NCBI RefSeq assembly: GCF_036172515.1 | Contig: NZ_JAXKVW010000010.1 | Span: 1-64,000, forward strand | Source of the DNA: Flexistipes sp. | Lineage (GTDB): Bacteria; Chrysiogenota; Deferribacteres; Deferribacterales; Flexistipitaceae | Reading direction: 5' to 3' | Length of the DNA stretch: 64,000 bases | Part shown: positions 2,760-19,159 of the stretch, piece by piece | Layout of the letters: each line of letters starts with the position of its first letter | Position numbering within the stretch: position 1 is the first letter of the stretch | Notes under the pieces: model-generated | The model's input: the letters and a program-made list of their open reading frames with translations, nothing else | What the model was told of the DNA's origin: nothing | Database searches by the model: none | Translations under genes and position numbers: made by a program

Positions 2760-4330
2760 AGTATCGCCTGTGCAAGAAAAATTGTAATTATGAGAGCAAA
2801 GGGATAAACCGCAGCATAAGCAACGGAAGGTCTGCCCGAATCACATACTTCGGTGGCCATGGAAAGTGCTGGCGTTGAAGTCATACTGCCGGAAAAGACG
2901 CCAAGGATATCCAGTACATTGTATTTTAACATTTTAAACATGACAAAAGTAAAAGCACTATACGTAATCAATAATATTCCCAATGCAATATAAATTGATG
3001 TAAAGCCCAGCGTATTAATCGATTGCAGAAGATAAGCACCGGCATTTGTACCTATAGTAGCCATAAAAATCAGCTGTCCCAATGTTTTCATCAGACTTGT
3101 AGAATGAGGTGAAAGCTGCCAGACAAGTTTTCCTGTACGCCCTATTCTGCCCAGAACCAAAGCCGTAAGCAAAATACCTCCGACAAAACTTAACTTAAAA
3201 TATCCGAATCCCGGAATATTCAACGGAATAAAACCGATACTCATACCAATTAAAATCCCCATGGAAATAGGCAGAAAATCACCTGCCGGAAAATTAAGAA
3301 GGTTATTGCCGATAAAATTTGTTACCCTTTTCTCAAACTTTTCAGGAACAGTAATGTACAACTTATCTCCCAACATAAGCGTGAGATTAGGTGTCGGGTT
3401 AATGTCAATACCGGCTCTCCTTACCTTTGAGATGCTTGCTCCTACAGCAGTGAGCTCTTTAAGTTCGGATATTTTTTTGCCGACAACTTTTTTTGTTGTA
3501 ACAAGCAGTCTAAGAACCTTAAGGTTGTCATGAAACGTGACGCTGTCACTCACTTCTTCTCCGAGAATTACTTTAACCTTGTCCATTTGGTCTTTTGTAC
3601 CGGTAACCCTCACAATATCTCCGAAATGCATTGTGTGATCCATTTCCGTATCTTCAATCGGATATTCTGATTCGATTCTTTCGATAATTGTGTTGGTCAT
3701 CTCCTGAACTTCGGATTTGGTTATATGCTGGTTTTTGAAATTCTCATTGGTTATTCTGAAGTTTTTTGTCGCAATAGACGGATAACGCTGTCTGACACTT
3801 TCTTCATATCTCCTTCTCTCCTCGCTCATGTCCACCTTCAGAAGGCCGGGAATAATCTTAGGATAAAGTATTGTCAGGACAATACAAAAAGGATATACAA
3901 GACCGAAAACAACGGATATTGAAGGAGAACTGCTTGCCTCCAGACTGGCAGCAAGTGCCGGAGCATTTGTCATAACCCCGGTAAAAAGGCCGGCCTGAAC
4001 ATCCTTTGTAAACCCCAGCATTTTAGAAACAATCATAATTTCCAGGAAAATTGTTCCGACAAGACATGCAGCTATAATGTTAAGTTTTAATCCCTTGTTT
4101 CTAATAGTTTCGAAAAAGCCGGGGCCGGACTGCAAACCGATGGAATAAATAAAAATAGCAAGGCCAAAATATTTAAATTCTTCCGGAAGGCGAACTCCGA
4201 AATGGCCTGCAACAAGCGCCACAATAAGTATTGCTGAAATATCAAGAGAAAAACCTTTGATTTTTATGCTGCCAACAATGTAGCCCAGTGTAATAATCAA
4301 AAACAGTTGAAATATTATCTCTAAATGCAT
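2756..4330 (-). CDS. AspT/YidE/YbjL-type antiporter with central RCK_C domains
   Basis: 524 aa. Two membrane halves (about 1-155 and 350-524) flank a soluble centre (about 190-345) with two TrkA-C (RCK_C) domains. Each half carries the family hallmark, MTNAPALAASLEA in the first and MTSTPALSMATEV in the second, and GLQSGPGFF is also typical. The family includes the aspartate:alanine exchanger AspT, but most members have unknown substrates and the RCK_C pair suggests ligand gating. It lies 8 nt after the TetR gene and overlaps the VTT gene, so it is probably regulated with them. Confidence 0.82.
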   Translation of the reverse strand: MHLEIIFQLFLIITLGYIVGSIKIKGFSLDISAILIVALVAGHFGVRLPEEFKYFGLAIFIYSIGLQSGPGFFETIRNKGLKLNIIAACLVGTIFLEIMIVSKMLGFTKDVQAGLFTGVMTNAPALAASLEASSSPSISVVFGLVYPFCIVLTILYPKIIPGLLKVDMSEERRRYEESVRQRYPSIATKNFRITNENFKNQHITKSEVQEMTNTIIERIESEYPIEDTEMDHTMHFGDIVRVTGTKDQMDKVKVILGEEVSDSVTFHDNLKVLRLLVTTKKVVGKKISELKELTAVGASISKVRRAGIDINPTPNLTLMLGDKLYITVPEKFEKRVTNFIGNNLLNFPAGDFLPISMGILIGMSIGFIPLNIPGFGYFKLSFVGGILLTALVLGRIGRTGKLVWQLSPHSTSLMKTLGQLIFMATIGTNAGAYLLQSINTLGFTSIYIALGILLITYSAFTFVMFKMLKYNVLDILGVFSGSMTSTPALSMATEVCDSGRPSVAYAAVYPFALIITIFLAQAIL

Positions 4331-14088: not shown

Positions 14089-15054
14089 TTATTCTTTCTC
14101 AATAACCAATTTGTTCCTGCCTTCCCTTTTCGCCTGATACATTAATGAATCTGCATTTGCCAGCAGCGTATTCATTTCGTCATTTCTGATTTTAACTGCA
14201 CCGATGGATATTGTATAATTAATGTTTTTAGCCCCGTTTAAGTTCAGCTTTTGATTTTCAATTTTCTGTCTTAGCCCTTCCAAAAGCCTCACAGCATCTT
14301 TATAGTCAACATTGATTAATATAATCCCAAATTCTTCTCCTCCCAAACGGCCAACAAGGTCACTCGACCTGAAACTGGCTTCAAGCATACGGGCAAAATG
14401 TTTTAGTACTTCATCACCAATACCATGCCCGTATTCATCATTTATAATTTTAAAGTGGTCTATATCCAGCATTGCAAAGTAAGCCGGTATATCCCTCTGC
14501 CTTATAATGTTTGAAATGAGTTTACTTCCAATTTCCTGGAAATATCTTCTGTTATAAAGACCTGTAAGATAATCTTTCTCAGACATATCTTTTGCCTTTT
14601 CATACATTTCATGTAAAAGGGCATTTTTTGATTCCAGTTCCCTGGATTGAAGCATAAGATTTGCATGGGCTTCAGCCAGTTTGTTCTGTGATTCTTTCTC
14701 ATTACTTATGTCTATGGCAAAAGAATATTTAGCAATTTTATCCCCGGGCCAGTATATAGCACGCTCTTCAAGTCTGTACCACCTTTCGTCAACATCATTG
14801 AACTCTTCATGAACAACAGTTTTCCCGCTTTCTGCTGCTTCTTTACTATACAGTTCACCAATTTTGCAAAAAATACATGGCTTATCATACCCATACAGAA
14901 CCTCATAACATTTACCGTTAACATTAGTCCCGATTTTTTCTTTCAATTTCGTATTCATATACAAAATTTCATATGATTCCATATCCACCACATAAGCGTA
15001 AAACGGAATCAGATCAAAAAGTTTCTTAAAAACACCGTTTTCCACAGAACTCAT
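14089..15054 (-). CDS. PAS-GGDEF diguanylate cyclase
   Basis: 321 aa from ATG 15054, chosen because GGAG lies 6 nt upstream; an ATG at 15060 touches the ribosome site. An N-terminal PAS domain (about 8-125) carries a cysteine cluster, KCYEVLYGYDKPCIFCKIGE, which suggests redox or metal sensing. A coiled coil leads to a GGDEF domain starting DYLTGLYNRRYF. The active site reads GGEEF, and RSSD five residues before it is an intact inhibitory I-site, so it should make c-di-GMP under product feedback. It is soluble. A MITE-like element separates it from the CheY gene upstream. Confidence 0.88.
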   Translation of the reverse strand: MSSVENGVFKKLFDLIPFYAYVVDMESYEILYMNTKLKEKIGTNVNGKCYEVLYGYDKPCIFCKIGELYSKEAAESGKTVVHEEFNDVDERWYRLEERAIYWPGDKIAKYSFAIDISNEKESQNKLAEAHANLMLQSRELESKNALLHEMYEKAKDMSEKDYLTGLYNRRYFQEIGSKLISNIIRQRDIPAYFAMLDIDHFKIINDEYGHGIGDEVLKHFARMLEASFRSSDLVGRLGGEEFGIILINVDYKDAVRLLEGLRQKIENQKLNLNGAKNINYTISIGAVKIRNDEMNTLLANADSLMYQAKREGRNKLVIEKE

Positions 15055-15089
15055 AGACATCTCCGAACTTTTTTAATAAATATAGTATT

Positions 15090-15283
15090 CAAGTTTCACA
15101 CTTACCCTTTCAGCACGTCTTTGTTCACCCTGTTAAATATCAGCTTTGCTGATTGCCAGTGGCATTTAACAGGGCAGGGAGTGAAAACGACGAAGCAATC
15201 TCACTTTTCTTTTTAGAGATTGCCACCCGCCCACTTAAGGTGTTAAGTGGGCGGCCTCAATTACAAAGCCAAGTGCAAAACTT
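15090..15283. mobile_element. MITE-like palindromic element, copy 2, with nested hairpins
   Basis: Ends CAAGTTTCACACTT (15090-15103) and AAGTGCAAAACTT (15271-15283) match the other two copies. An exact 12-bp direct repeat AAATATAGTATT flanks it (15078-15089 and 15284-15295), as expected of a target duplication. Inside are two extra hairpins: CCCTGTTAAAT/ATTTAACAGGG (15128-15174) enclosing ATCAGC/GCTGAT, and CCGCCCACTTAA/TTAAGTGGGCGG (15227-15254). The core GACGAAGCAATCTC is present. No coding capacity. Confidence 0.82.
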
Positions 15284-15320
15284 AAATATAGTATTTAATA
15301 TTTTCGCATTAATAATTCAG

Positions 15321-15698
15321 CTAATCTCCAATGTTGCCCAAAATTTTTTCAATCATGGCATTTATACGTTCTTTATTAAAGGGCTTTAAAATATAGCCGA
15401 CAGCCCCCGCCTCGATAGCACTAACAATCATCTGCTCCTGACCGTGTGAAGTAACAACCATCACAAGTGCCTTCGGGTTTTTATCCAAAATTTTCTTTGT
15501 GGCTTCAATACCGTCCATATCCGGCATTGTAATATCCATACTGACCAAATCAATTTTGTTCGAATCATATTTTTCGATTGACTCTTCACCTGTTTTTGCA
15601 GTGTCAACCACTTTATGCCCCAGTGATTCGTAAATTTGTATCAGCTTTTTATTAATAATCGAAGAATCATCAACGACCAGAATTTTTAATTTCTTCAT
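15321..15698 (-). CDS. CheY-like single-domain response regulator
   Basis: 125 aa, a lone receiver domain. Acidic pair D10-D11, phospho-acceptor D55 in SMDITMPDMDG, Thr83 and Lys105 in GYILKPF are all present, so it should be phosphorylated. There is no output domain. Its ribosome site AGGAG lies in the end of cheX, and the genes overlap by 29 nt. It is the likely target of the CheA-like kinase two genes upstream, with CheX as its phosphatase. The ultimate output is not visible; no flagellar genes are in the window. Confidence 0.92.
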   Translation of the reverse strand: MKKLKILVVDDSSIINKKLIQIYESLGHKVVDTAKTGEESIEKYDSNKIDLVSMDITMPDMDGIEATKKILDKNPKALVMVVTSHGQEQMIVSAIEAGAVGYILKPFNKERINAMIEKILGNIGD

Positions 15699-16194
15699 AA
15701 CTAACTCCTGTCATCGGTCTGATTAACAAATAAATGTGAAGTTTGCCTCGGGATGTTACGATTTTTGAGCTGTAAAATTCAGTATCCTCTTTATTTATTA
15801 AATTTCTGCTGCCTCTGTGGACAACAGGAGGTGAAAGTTTAATAGGAGATTTTACACTTTTAAAATCTCTCAGAGAATTACCTATAGTCATATTCATTAT
15901 CTCCCCTGCACTTTCCTCTTTATACAATTCAAGCTCGGTGGCATCAACATCAATTCCGTTAACAAATTTTTTAAAGATAAACTCGATAAGTGTTTTTTCA
16001 TAGCTGAACGCAAATACGGACGGAACATATCCCCTTAATACGATAAAGGAATTAAGGTAATCCGGATTTATTTTCACTACATCTTTCATATAAGTTGTGG
16101 TTTTGAAAACCTCCAAACCGAATTCCCCTTCCAGCAGCCTAACACAATTTTCTGTAACCAGATCAATAATTTTCATAAACCCCACATTAACCAT
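15670..16194 (-). CDS. cheX: CheX-like chemotaxis phosphatase
   Basis: 174 aa. The C-terminal two thirds match the CheC/CheX/FliY phosphatase fold, with a single active-site helix GEIMNMTIGNSLRDF carrying the E-x2-N motif (E98, N101) that removes phosphate from CheY-P. GGAG precedes the ATG at 16194 by 5 nt. It sits between the CheA-like kinase (2-nt gap) and CheY (29-nt overlap), giving a compact kinase-phosphatase-regulator unit. Confidence 0.8.
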   Translation of the reverse strand: MVNVGFMKIIDLVTENCVRLLEGEFGLEVFKTTTYMKDVVKINPDYLNSFIVLRGYVPSVFAFSYEKTLIEFIFKKFVNGIDVDATELELYKEESAGEIMNMTIGNSLRDFKSVKSPIKLSPPVVHRGSRNLINKEDTEFYSSKIVTSRGKLHIYLLIRPMTGVSYEEIKNSGR

Positions 16195-16196
16195 GT

Positions 16197-18719
16197 TTAC
16201 TCCTTCATGGGTACTTTTATAAAAACTTTTGTGCCCACATCCTTTTTACTGTCAATGGCAACAGAGCCTTTCAGTTTCACCACTTCCGTTTTCACCGCAC
16301 CAAGTCCGGCTCCTCTTCCGGTATAGCTGTCAACCATTTCACTTGAGGTTATACCGTTCTCAAATAGTATATCATATTCATTGGCACGTAATCTTCTGCC
16401 GATTTTTCTGCCCAGATAATTCAAATCCACACCTTTACCATCGTCCGCCACTTCTATCACAAGAAAGCTTTCTATCTTTGCTGCCTTGCAGTGAATCTTA
16501 CCAGTCTCACTTTTACCTTTCGAAACACGTATTTCTGGTTTTTCTATACCGTGGACTACTGCATTTACAATAATATGATAAAAAACATTAAAAAAATCCC
16601 TGAAATCTTCGGGATAAATTTTCAAATCAGGATCACAGGCAATATTATAGTCTACCATTTTTTCTTCCTTTTTAGCCACCATATCCACAACTTTTCTGAA
16701 TCCTTCAAGATACCCGGATAAAGATACTTTTAAAAGCTCGGAAAGTTCTCTGTATAAATCAGTGTCCACCCGCTTTGCTTTCTGTTGAATTAATTTAAGT
16801 TTTTCCATATCAACTTTAATCATTGCATTATCAAGCACGTTTTCCCCGAGATTTTCCCTGAGAATATCCGTGTCTTTTTTCAGTGCGTTGCACAATCTCG
16901 AGGTGTTGATATTGAGTTTATTCTGCTGTTTGCGAAAGAAATTCTGTACATATGTTTCTTCATCATGAATAAAATCAGGAATGTTAATAAAACCTTTCTG
17001 CAAAAAATTTCCTTTAAACGTATGAAGCTTTCTGTAGACAACTTCAACACTGTATGAGTCAATATTTTTGCAAAAATTTAGGAAATCATGAATAAGCTCC
17101 CTGACTCCATACTCATCCTTTACATATTCAACAACGAGATTAAGTTTCCTTCTTTCATCTTCCACTTCACGGCTTAGATTTTTCTGCTCAGTAATATCTC
17201 TCATTATTAACACTATAGTATTGTTTTTACCCAATCTGAATCTCAATGCATAGTGTTTGCCGTTAATCTCAGTTTCTGCCGGAAGCAGATCTATCATAAT
17301 CTCCTTCAAGAATTTCTTTTCCTGATTAAAAATACTATTGACAACCCTTTGGAAGAATTGTCTCTTTTCCCTGTCCTCAGGAAATAACAGCTTATGAATG
17401 TCTTTATCACTTATATCCTCACCAAATATATCAAAACATTCTTTAGAAAATTCACTGTCAATCCTCATGTCAGGGTTGAACCTGAGAAAACCTTCGCCGG
17501 CACTGTTTAATAAAAAGGAAATTTTCTCTTTACTTATTATAAGATCCCGGGATTTTTGCCGCATTCGGTCTTCCAAATCCTTGATATATGATTTTAACTT
17601 TATCTCCGTTGACATCCTGTTAAATATTCTCTTGAGAGTTCCTATTTCATCATTTTCATCAATCACAAATTTTGTATCGTAGTTTCCCTCTCCTATCCTG
17701 AGAGCTCCTTTCGTCAGATCCCTGACCGGTTTTATAATACTTCTGTCTATATACAGAGCAAAGAACGAAAAAATTAAAATTGTTCCTATGACAATAAAGC
17801 TAATGGGAATTATTAAATCATTTAAAGCAAATATTCCGTTTAAATCTATTATGGATAAGAGAAACCAGCCGGTATCAGGCATAAAAGACAGTGCAATGGT
17901 TTTGGATTCGGCACCGATTCTTACAGATTTGGTAAGACTACTATCCGGATTTGATGAAGTTTCGGCCATAATATTTTTTAATGCAAGCTGGGCATTTGAG
18001 GAAAGGGATGAAAAAATATTCTTATTCATCGGAATATTTGTTTTATTATCGACTGCTCCTGCAAAAATGCTCCCTTCTCTATTTAATATAAAAGTAGAAA
18101 CCCCTTTTTTCGATGTATCAATAATCTCTGTCAGATAATCAGCGGCCTGTATTTTTGTGCCCACCACCCCTTCAGGTTTTCCATTATATAAAACAGCTGC
18201 ACTTATCCACAGATCAGCTTTTTCATCACCAGATTCATTATTAACTCTAATGTCGTAACTTTTATTACCCTTAAACAAATCAAAGTATTTTTCATATTCC
18301 CGGCTTCCCGGACTAATGGACTTTGTATAGCCAACAGAAGTGCCGGTTGTCTGCTTATTAATTAAATAATAGTGCCCCGAGTCACGGGATATTATATAAA
18401 CACTGCCGGATTTGAAAAATCCTCTGTATCTTTTCAGCTCCTTTACTGCAGAAATTTTAAGAGATGCATTATATTCGTATTTAAGCCAGTCAATTATATT
18501 TTCAGAAGATGCAAGTGATTTTACCAGAATCAATTCACTGCCGATAAATTTACTGATTTTTTCTTTTTGCAGAGAAATATGTTGTTTGATATAATCTGAG
18601 CTGAATTTATTAGCAATTGTACCCCGGGTTTCTTTCAACAGAAAATATCCCAGGAGACACAAAAGAGAAATAGCCAGAATAAAAAAAATGAGAAATCTTT
18701 TTCTTATACCCTTCAACAT
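16197..18719 (-). CDS. Membrane CheA-like hybrid kinase: Cache-HAMP-PAS-Hpt-HATPase
   Basis: 840 aa. Membrane helix at about 8-28, periplasmic Cache-type sensor (about 30-295), second helix 301-324, HAMP (325-375) beginning RSIIKPVRDLTKGALRIGEG, PAS (about 398-515) ending in MRDITEQ, then an Hpt-type helix with LHTFKG where H566 is the likely phosphorylation site. The ATPase has N-box IIVNAVVHGIEKPEI (N719), G1 DDGKGV and G2 GRGAGLGAV. The HGIE motif and H-T-x-K-G are CheA hallmarks, not ordinary HisKA. It lacks CheA's CheW-like C-terminal domain and has its own transmembrane sensor, so it combines receptor and kinase. Downstream CheX and CheY are its probable partners. Confidence 0.82.
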   Translation of the reverse strand: MLKGIRKRFLIFFILAISLLCLLGYFLLKETRGTIANKFSSDYIKQHISLQKEKISKFIGSELILVKSLASSENIIDWLKYEYNASLKISAVKELKRYRGFFKSGSVYIISRDSGHYYLINKQTTGTSVGYTKSISPGSREYEKYFDLFKGNKSYDIRVNNESGDEKADLWISAAVLYNGKPEGVVGTKIQAADYLTEIIDTSKKGVSTFILNREGSIFAGAVDNKTNIPMNKNIFSSLSSNAQLALKNIMAETSSNPDSSLTKSVRIGAESKTIALSFMPDTGWFLLSIIDLNGIFALNDLIIPISFIVIGTILIFSFFALYIDRSIIKPVRDLTKGALRIGEGNYDTKFVIDENDEIGTLKRIFNRMSTEIKLKSYIKDLEDRMRQKSRDLIISKEKISFLLNSAGEGFLRFNPDMRIDSEFSKECFDIFGEDISDKDIHKLLFPEDREKRQFFQRVVNSIFNQEKKFLKEIMIDLLPAETEINGKHYALRFRLGKNNTIVLIMRDITEQKNLSREVEDERRKLNLVVEYVKDEYGVRELIHDFLNFCKNIDSYSVEVVYRKLHTFKGNFLQKGFINIPDFIHDEETYVQNFFRKQQNKLNINTSRLCNALKKDTDILRENLGENVLDNAMIKVDMEKLKLIQQKAKRVDTDLYRELSELLKVSLSGYLEGFRKVVDMVAKKEEKMVDYNIACDPDLKIYPEDFRDFFNVFYHIIVNAVVHGIEKPEIRVSKGKSETGKIHCKAAKIESFLVIEVADDGKGVDLNYLGRKIGRRLRANEYDILFENGITSSEMVDSYTGRGAGLGAVKTEVVKLKGSVAIDSKKDVGTKVFIKVPMKE

Positions 18720-18761
18720 GTTTCAGAATACCAGCAAAAGTTAAATTGGTCAAATTGAAAG

Positions 18762-18793
18762 AATTGGCACCCTCCCATTTTTTAGAGCTATGA
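18762..18793 (+). repeat. Short dispersed repeat (TTGGCACC...AGAGCTAT), copy B
   Basis: TTGGCACC, a short C-rich block, six T, then AGAGCTATGACAA. This matches the reverse strand of 7313-7351 block by block. It lies about 43 bp upstream of the kinase start codon, so it may also sit in that gene's promoter region. Confidence 0.4.
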
Positions 18794-18890
18794 CAATACG
18801 CAGATATTGTTAGTACATAGATAGAGATCCCTCGGCTTCGCTCGAGGTGACAATTACATGCATACTGTCTATCAGCGATAGCTAAATAGG

Positions 18891-18929
18891 GTGTTACACA
18901 TATTTACCAGTCTAAAAGACTGGCGCTAG
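18891..18929 (+). repeat. REP-like hairpin, copy 3
   Basis: GTGTTACACATATTTA leads into stem CCAGTCT (18907-18913), loop AAA, stem AGACTGG (18917-18923), then CGCTAG. Compared with copy 2 the stem has a C-to-T change on the left arm answered by G-to-A on the right, so pairing is kept. Confidence 0.75.
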
Positions 18930-19159
18930 CCGCAGGCATCCTTTCGAACAAAGTGAGAAATCTCTGCCATATGAAACGACATAACGAATAAATATACAAC
19001 TGTGCTTAATATTGGGATATCTTCATGCGTGAAAATCCCGATATTTAGATAAAGTATTGTCAAATAGCACAAGTACAAAAATTTTGGGAGGTTGCTAATG
19101 AAAGAATAGTTGAATTATTATATTTATTAGATTATTTTGCACCTTTTAAGGAGGTATCG

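Follow-up and report, generated by a model that had tools for sequence, protein, structure and literature searches.

A CheW-less receptor kinase encoded with CheX and CheY in Flexistipes, and a diguanylate cyclase as its possible output

In a 64,000-nucleotide stretch of Flexistipes sp. DNA (assembly GCF_036172515.1, contig NZ_JAXKVW010000010.1, forward-strand positions 1 to 64,000; hereafter the window), we analyzed a group of minus-strand genes encoding a receptor kinase, a CheX-family protein and a CheY-like regulator, together with the diguanylate cyclase gene that follows them. Domains were called with Pfam, and sequences were compared with those of 51 genomes of the phylum Deferribacterota, the window's genome included. 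The features are as follows (aa, amino acids; nt, nucleotides).

16197 to 18719, minus strand: receptor histidine kinase, 840 aa, with the layout dCache, HAMP, PAS-like, Hpt and CheA-type ATPase, without a CheW domain
17856 to 18563, minus strand: periplasmic dCache sensor, residues 53 to 288 (PF02743, dCache_1, E 4e-10)
17601 to 17744, minus strand: HAMP domain, residues 326 to 373 (PF00672, 45.8 bits)
17160 to 17543, minus strand: PAS-like domain, about residues 393 to 520 (weak matches)
16911 to 17048, minus strand: predicted Hpt (CheA P1-like) core, residues 558 to 603, H566 codon at 17022 to 17024 (hhalign and orthologue profile)
16203 to 16592, minus strand: CheA-type HATPase domain, residues 710 to 839 (PF02518, HATPase_c, 42 bits), with the N box NAVVHGIE, DDGKG and TGRGAG
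15670 to 16194, minus strand: CheX-family phosphatase, 174 aa (PF13690, 33.2 bits against a cut-off of 27), with E98-x2-N101 at 15892 to 15903
15321 to 15698, minus strand: single-domain CheY-like response regulator, 125 aa (PF00072, 102.7 bits), with D55 at 15534 to 15536
14089 to 15060, minus strand: diguanylate cyclase, 323 aa (PF00990, 147 bits), with an RSSD I-site and a GGEEF active site (RSSD-x5-GGEEF)
15090 to 15282 (interval 15077 to 15298), no strand assigned: inserted repeat element of about 193 nt between the CheY and cyclase genes, missing in Flexistipes sinusarabici (G015)

The positions of the first three genes, the 2-nt gap between kinase and CheX, the 29-nt overlap between CheX and CheY, and the residues H566 (kinase), E98 and N101 (CheX) and D55 (CheY), all given in a preliminary description of this DNA, were reproduced in the open reading frames, and domain searches bore out its proposal that a receptor and a CheA-type kinase are combined in one CheW-less protein coupled to CheX and CheY. 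The dCache_1 match scored 40.1 bits, slightly below the family cut-off of 45 bits. The PAS domain named in that description was recognized as well, though weakly: the region gave weak matches to the HAMP and PAS parts of the WalK and PnpS models, PAS_9 was detected in one of the three kinase orthologues (E 0.07), and the orthologue profile of the region matched a 937-aa protein of a genome from another family of the order (G009; E 1.5e-5). Over residues 620 to 838, only CheA was matched among solved kinases (4xiv, E 1.6e-21); the phmmer alignment to CheA structures begins at residue 620, within the P3 part, and there was no Pfam match to H-kinase_dim. Since the kinase stops at residue 840, right after the ATPase and 2 residues past the CheA match, it has no CheW (P5) domain at its C terminus. 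In a tree of ATPase domains, the kinase clustered with CheA, apart from HisKA kinases. Single-sequence structure prediction of its C-terminal part was not interpretable (predicted local distance difference test [pLDDT], 39).

Profile comparison supported the presence of a predicted Hpt/P1 domain with a phospho-acceptor histidine. A profile of the stretch from PAS to Hpt, built from the three orthologues, matched the P1 domains of numerous CheAs from the phylum (E 1e-4 to 1e-2), and these matches lay in the expected place, ahead of the CheA ATPase. An hhalign comparison with CheA P1 (E 5.8e-5) put H566 in the phospho-histidine column, with H585 and E588, at +19 and +22 from H566, occupying the conserved CheA histidine and glutamate positions; H67 and E70 of Escherichia coli CheA have this spacing. 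Moreover, related kinases of the same layout in Burkholderiales have an Hpt domain that Pfam itself recognizes (38.8 bits). The preliminary description had named an ordinary HisKA dimer domain around residue 566 as the finding that would speak against Hpt. No HisKA match was obtained at E ≤ 1, so the Hpt reading stands, and we rejected an orthodox two-component kinase with a HisKA dimer domain. We consider it highly likely that the protein is a working kinase of the Hpt-CheA type.

The CheX-family protein resembles the CheX/CheC phosphatases in its E-x2-N motif, in a Pfam CheX score over the cut-off and in having a CheY gene as neighbor, and E98, N101 and G105 are invariant across its orthologues and the CheX-like proteins of Burkholderiales. 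It differs from those phosphatases in its distance from the phylum's canonical CheX, which in most relatives scores far higher (75 to 105 bits versus about 34), and in being kept in a genome without FliG. No meaningful match to the PDB was found, and single-sequence structure prediction (pLDDT 37) was not interpretable. In CheY, residues D10, D11, D55, T83 and K105 are conserved, and the GQ..M..AI.AGA..KPF face that is usual in chemotaxis CheYs has been retained. CheX is likely to be the protein that resets this CheY.

Full-length kinase orthologues were found in only two other genomes, those of F. sinusarabici (96% identity) and G009 (37%). The order kinase-CheX-CheY is kept in both. As it persists in another family, where the proteins are 36 to 62% identical, we rejected a chance gene order. 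A PAS-GGDEF protein begins 60 nt past CheY in F. sinusarabici; in G009, a PAS-histidine kinase comes next after CheY, ahead of a PAS-GGDEF protein, the genes abutting or overlapping. The cyclases of the window and of G009 are orthologous in layout and 50% identical, with the N-terminal cysteines (C51/C62/C65, borne on a PAS-like domain in the window protein), the RxxD I-site and the GGEEF motif all kept. In the window, the gap between CheY and cyclase is 260 nt owing to the insertion of the repeat element, and the ancestral gap is the 60 nt seen in F. sinusarabici, which has no element. The element carries internal inverted repeats and is flanked by 13-nt direct repeats (AATACTATATTTA, minus strand), a target duplication; it matches no fewer than 40 sites across the genome (40 being the number scored), which suggests an abundant family resembling miniature inverted-repeat transposable elements. 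Given the conserved downstream cyclase and an insertion that explains the gap, the GGDEF gene very probably belongs to the unit, which would then comprise four genes rather than the three of the preliminary description.

Two neighborhoods in the relatives are recorded here. In G009, the PAS-histidine kinase (L068, 4302-5468) and the PAS-GGDEF protein (3352-4305) share a cysteine-bearing N-terminal domain (CIFCK/CPHCK), which looks like one input domain duplicated onto kinase and cyclase. In a genome of another family of the phylum (G019; L071, 5385-7314), a receiver, a CheC/CheX-type phosphatase and a PAS-GGDEF protein are adjacent without this kinase, the GGDEF reading frame being split in two; this independent grouping counts in favor of the c-di-GMP scheme proposed below.

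These data are best read, with somewhat better than even confidence, as a two-component system assembled from chemotaxis parts, in which the receptor kinase would act on CheY, CheX would reset it, and a diguanylate cyclase would give an output in cyclic di-GMP (c-di-GMP). The periplasmic dCache domain would sense a ligand, and the HAMP and PAS-like domains would relay the signal to the CheA-type core of the same protein. The ATPase domain would phosphorylate H566 on the fused Hpt domain without CheW, receptor array or methylation, and from H566 the phosphoryl group would pass to CheY, a separate protein, at D55. CheX, predicted to share their transcript, would strip the phosphoryl group from CheY through E98/N101 and so set the speed of the reset; HisKA kinases often dephosphorylate their regulators themselves, whereas CheA-type kinases do not. 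Finally, CheY would act on the cyclase of the unit, such that the sensed signal changes c-di-GMP; it would probably bind the PAS/coiled-coil region at the cyclase's N terminus. The domains, residues and conserved gene order were observed; the chemical steps, the ligand and the sense of CheY's effect on the cyclase are proposals built on them. The catalytic residues of CheX, CheY and cyclase are conserved, as this scheme would need. The unit is thus probably a chemotaxis-style switch rewired from swimming to c-di-GMP control.

Several observations weigh against this scheme. Pfam gave no Hpt match in the kinase at E ≤ 1, and relaxing the threshold to E ≤ 10 brought up nothing but chance families. 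The unit is rare, being held by three of the 51 genomes. The connection between CheY and cyclase is one of gene order; in G009, the PAS-histidine kinase between the two could be the partner of CheY, and this organism is flagellated, so that CheY could act on motility there. In two further genomes (G022 and G003), a receiver and CheC/CheX-type protein are followed by a PAS-histidine kinase, with no cyclase. In a less probable case, the three proteins would function as proposed above, but phosphorylated CheY would act elsewhere (on type IV pili, on a distant partner or, in G009, on the flagellar switch), with the cyclase a mere neighbor under its own PAS input. The chemotaxis-type face of CheY would suit such an output, the cyclase could sense alone through the PAS-like domain with its conserved cysteines, and a CheC/CheX-type phosphatase precedes PAS-histidine kinases, not cyclases, in G023 as well as in G022 and G003 (with CheY in the latter two). 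On the other hand, the cyclase lies downstream of CheY in two families, at 60 nt in F. sinusarabici and in coupled genes in G009, and FliG is missing from both Flexistipes genomes that have the unit. Because the gene order is conserved, we infer control of the cyclase by CheY, and we regard the cyclase as the target of CheY with a confidence at or a little above even.

FliG was not found in the window's genome or in F. sinusarabici but is present in 46 of the 51 genomes, and F. sinusarabici has been described as non-motile (PMC3236037). The window's genome encodes ten GGDEF domains and one PilZ protein. The preliminary description had suggested an output other than swimming, perhaps c-di-GMP; a non-swimming output is judged likely, and c-di-GMP was a good guess. 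The unit is not the genome's only chemosensory equipment: a separate cluster on contig C1 encodes one methyl-accepting chemotaxis protein (MCP), together with CheW proteins and a protein that joins CheA, CheW and receiver domains. A scan of the genome's contigs with the kinase alignment returned one ordinary CheA. The CheW-domain proteins were found at G000:C1:323698-329011, unlike the published absence of cheW in F. sinusarabici, whose genome paper lists cheB, cheR, cheV and cheW as missing (PMC3236037).

The presence of this cluster raises the idea that the proteins of the unit serve it or cross-talk with it, CheY and CheX being its missing output. The genome's only CheX is at the unit, the cluster has a single MCP, and no CheR is encoded in the genome. 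We nevertheless think this unlikely, given that the operon with the receptor kinase is conserved at large distance, that the C1 cluster owns receiver domains, and that G009 has a canonical CheX beside the unit's CheX. Less probable still is a kinase acting mainly as a phosphatase or inactive sensor, in a unit left to decay after a motility system was lost. The lack of FliG in both Flexistipes genomes with the unit, unlike most relatives, and the mobile elements inserted on both sides of it would fit such decay; yet the catalytic residues are intact and the frames open, at the levels of identity to F. sinusarabici and G009 given above. In addition, another genome of the genus (G016) carries both FliG and a canonical CheX while lacking any match to the kinase, which argues against the unit being left over from the flagellar system.

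The sensor half of the kinase resembles SiaA. Residues 4 to 399 matched the N-terminal half of SiaA (NF038263, 209 bits over positions 1 to 403 of 658), a score far exceeding that of the generic dCache model. We rejected the kinase as a SiaA, as the cut-off of NF038263 is 700 bits, the match is confined to the sensor half and the PP2C part is missing. A SiaA-like protein of genome G001 aligned over kinase residues 6 to 391; its C-terminal half reads, by eye, as PP2C, and a gene of SiaB size lies behind it. In Pseudomonas aeruginosa, the Sia pathway controls the diguanylate cyclase SiaD (PMC8457831). SiaABCD and the window's unit share a homologous Cache-HAMP N-terminal half and a diguanylate cyclase in the operon, but SiaA is a PP2C phosphatase that signals via threonine phosphorylation of SiaC, and here a CheA-type kinase, CheX and CheY are found instead. 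A SiaA-like sensor on another transmitter, again with a cyclase at the end, supports but does not prove the c-di-GMP output; a SiaA-type sensor would thus be joined to two different output chemistries, each ending with a diguanylate cyclase.

In the unit there is no MCP signalling hairpin, no CheW coupling and neither CheR nor CheB (CheB was not itself searched for across the genome). Lacking CheW-type coupling, the MCP hairpin and CheR, the unit does not qualify as a chemosensory system in the strict meaning of the term and is better described as a two-component system with CheA/CheX chemistry. The earlier label of a minimal chemosensory circuit was only half right, as CheW, methylation enzymes and evidence for an array are missing. 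The kinase is like class II CheA in its Hpt domain with the HTxKG...H..E signature, its CheA-type P4 ATPase and their grouping in the tree; it differs in being membrane-bound with its own dCache sensor, in having no CheW/P5 and in showing no recognized P3 or P2. CheA is normally defined by working via separate receptors and CheW, and a survey of 13,673 CheA proteins found CheW in every one (PMC10542144), so that by this definition the kinase is not a CheA. A natural fusion that skips receptors and CheW and keeps an external phosphatase and CheY would separate the parts needed for signalling from those for array and adaptation, and it would offer a compact link between sensor and c-di-GMP that can be tested, in a genus that is anaerobic and non-motile. 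Control of c-di-GMP by a CheA-type kinase is familiar from WspE/WspR. The Wsp/ACF systems share this trait with the proposed scheme, but Wsp relies on an MCP with CheW, CheR and CheB, and its receiver is fused to GGDEF; the window's unit has none of these, its receiver and cyclase being separate proteins.

The distribution of the kinase type outside Deferribacterota was taken from plasmid and chromid records. Receptor kinases of Burkholderiales (Caballeronia L111, Burkholderia L110/L112, Ideonella L113) likewise combine sensor, HAMP, PAS, Hpt and CheA-type ATPase without CheW and are followed by CheX-like genes. They differ in a 4HB_MCP sensor (layout 4HB_MCP-HAMP-PAS-Hpt-CheA-type ATPase, as scanned in the Caballeronia protein), in a second CheX-domain protein and, in Ideonella and Burkholderia arboris, in an MCP-like protein. 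Behind the Caballeronia kinase come a weakly matching CheX-like protein with E-x2-N, whose 15.8 bits do not reach the cut-off, and a CheX-domain protein that exceeds it; Ideonella encodes a small MCP-like protein as well as one with E-x2-N. The Vibrio matches in these records were rejected as CheA with CheW, hence not of this type. In the ATPase tree, the Deferribacterota and Burkholderiales kinases both join CheA, as separate long-branched clades, a pattern that leaves room for a common origin without showing one. Searches of open-access papers turned up no account of such a kinase. Tentatively, CheW-less receptor-CheA kinases with CheX-type phosphatases may form a distinct, undescribed class between two-component and chemosensory systems, one that may have arisen at least twice (a dCache type in Deferribacterota and a 4HB_MCP type in Burkholderiales), some members being wired to diguanylate cyclases.

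Two features of the Burkholderiales loci were also seen. The kinase genes overlap that of a small protein with an MCP-like hairpin (NASIEAAR...GRGF; L110, 9418-10335, and L113, 9787-10521), a possible accessory. On the Ideonella plasmid, reverse transcriptases and two Avd genes lie near the receptor-kinase operon (L113, 12719-16118) and are apparently diversity-generating retroelements.

Upstream of the kinase gene in the window, an insertion of about 334 nt (18756 to 19107), distinct from the element on the cheY side and missing in F. sinusarabici, has 15-nt imperfect terminal inverted repeats and a 9-nt duplication (ATTCTTTCA, minus strand). Between it and the gene, an extended -10 promoter-like site (18725 to 18753; TTGACC-17-TATTCT with TG), identical in F. 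sinusarabici, ends 5 bases upstream of the kinase ATG, ahead of which no ribosome-binding site is visible; the transcript may be leaderless.

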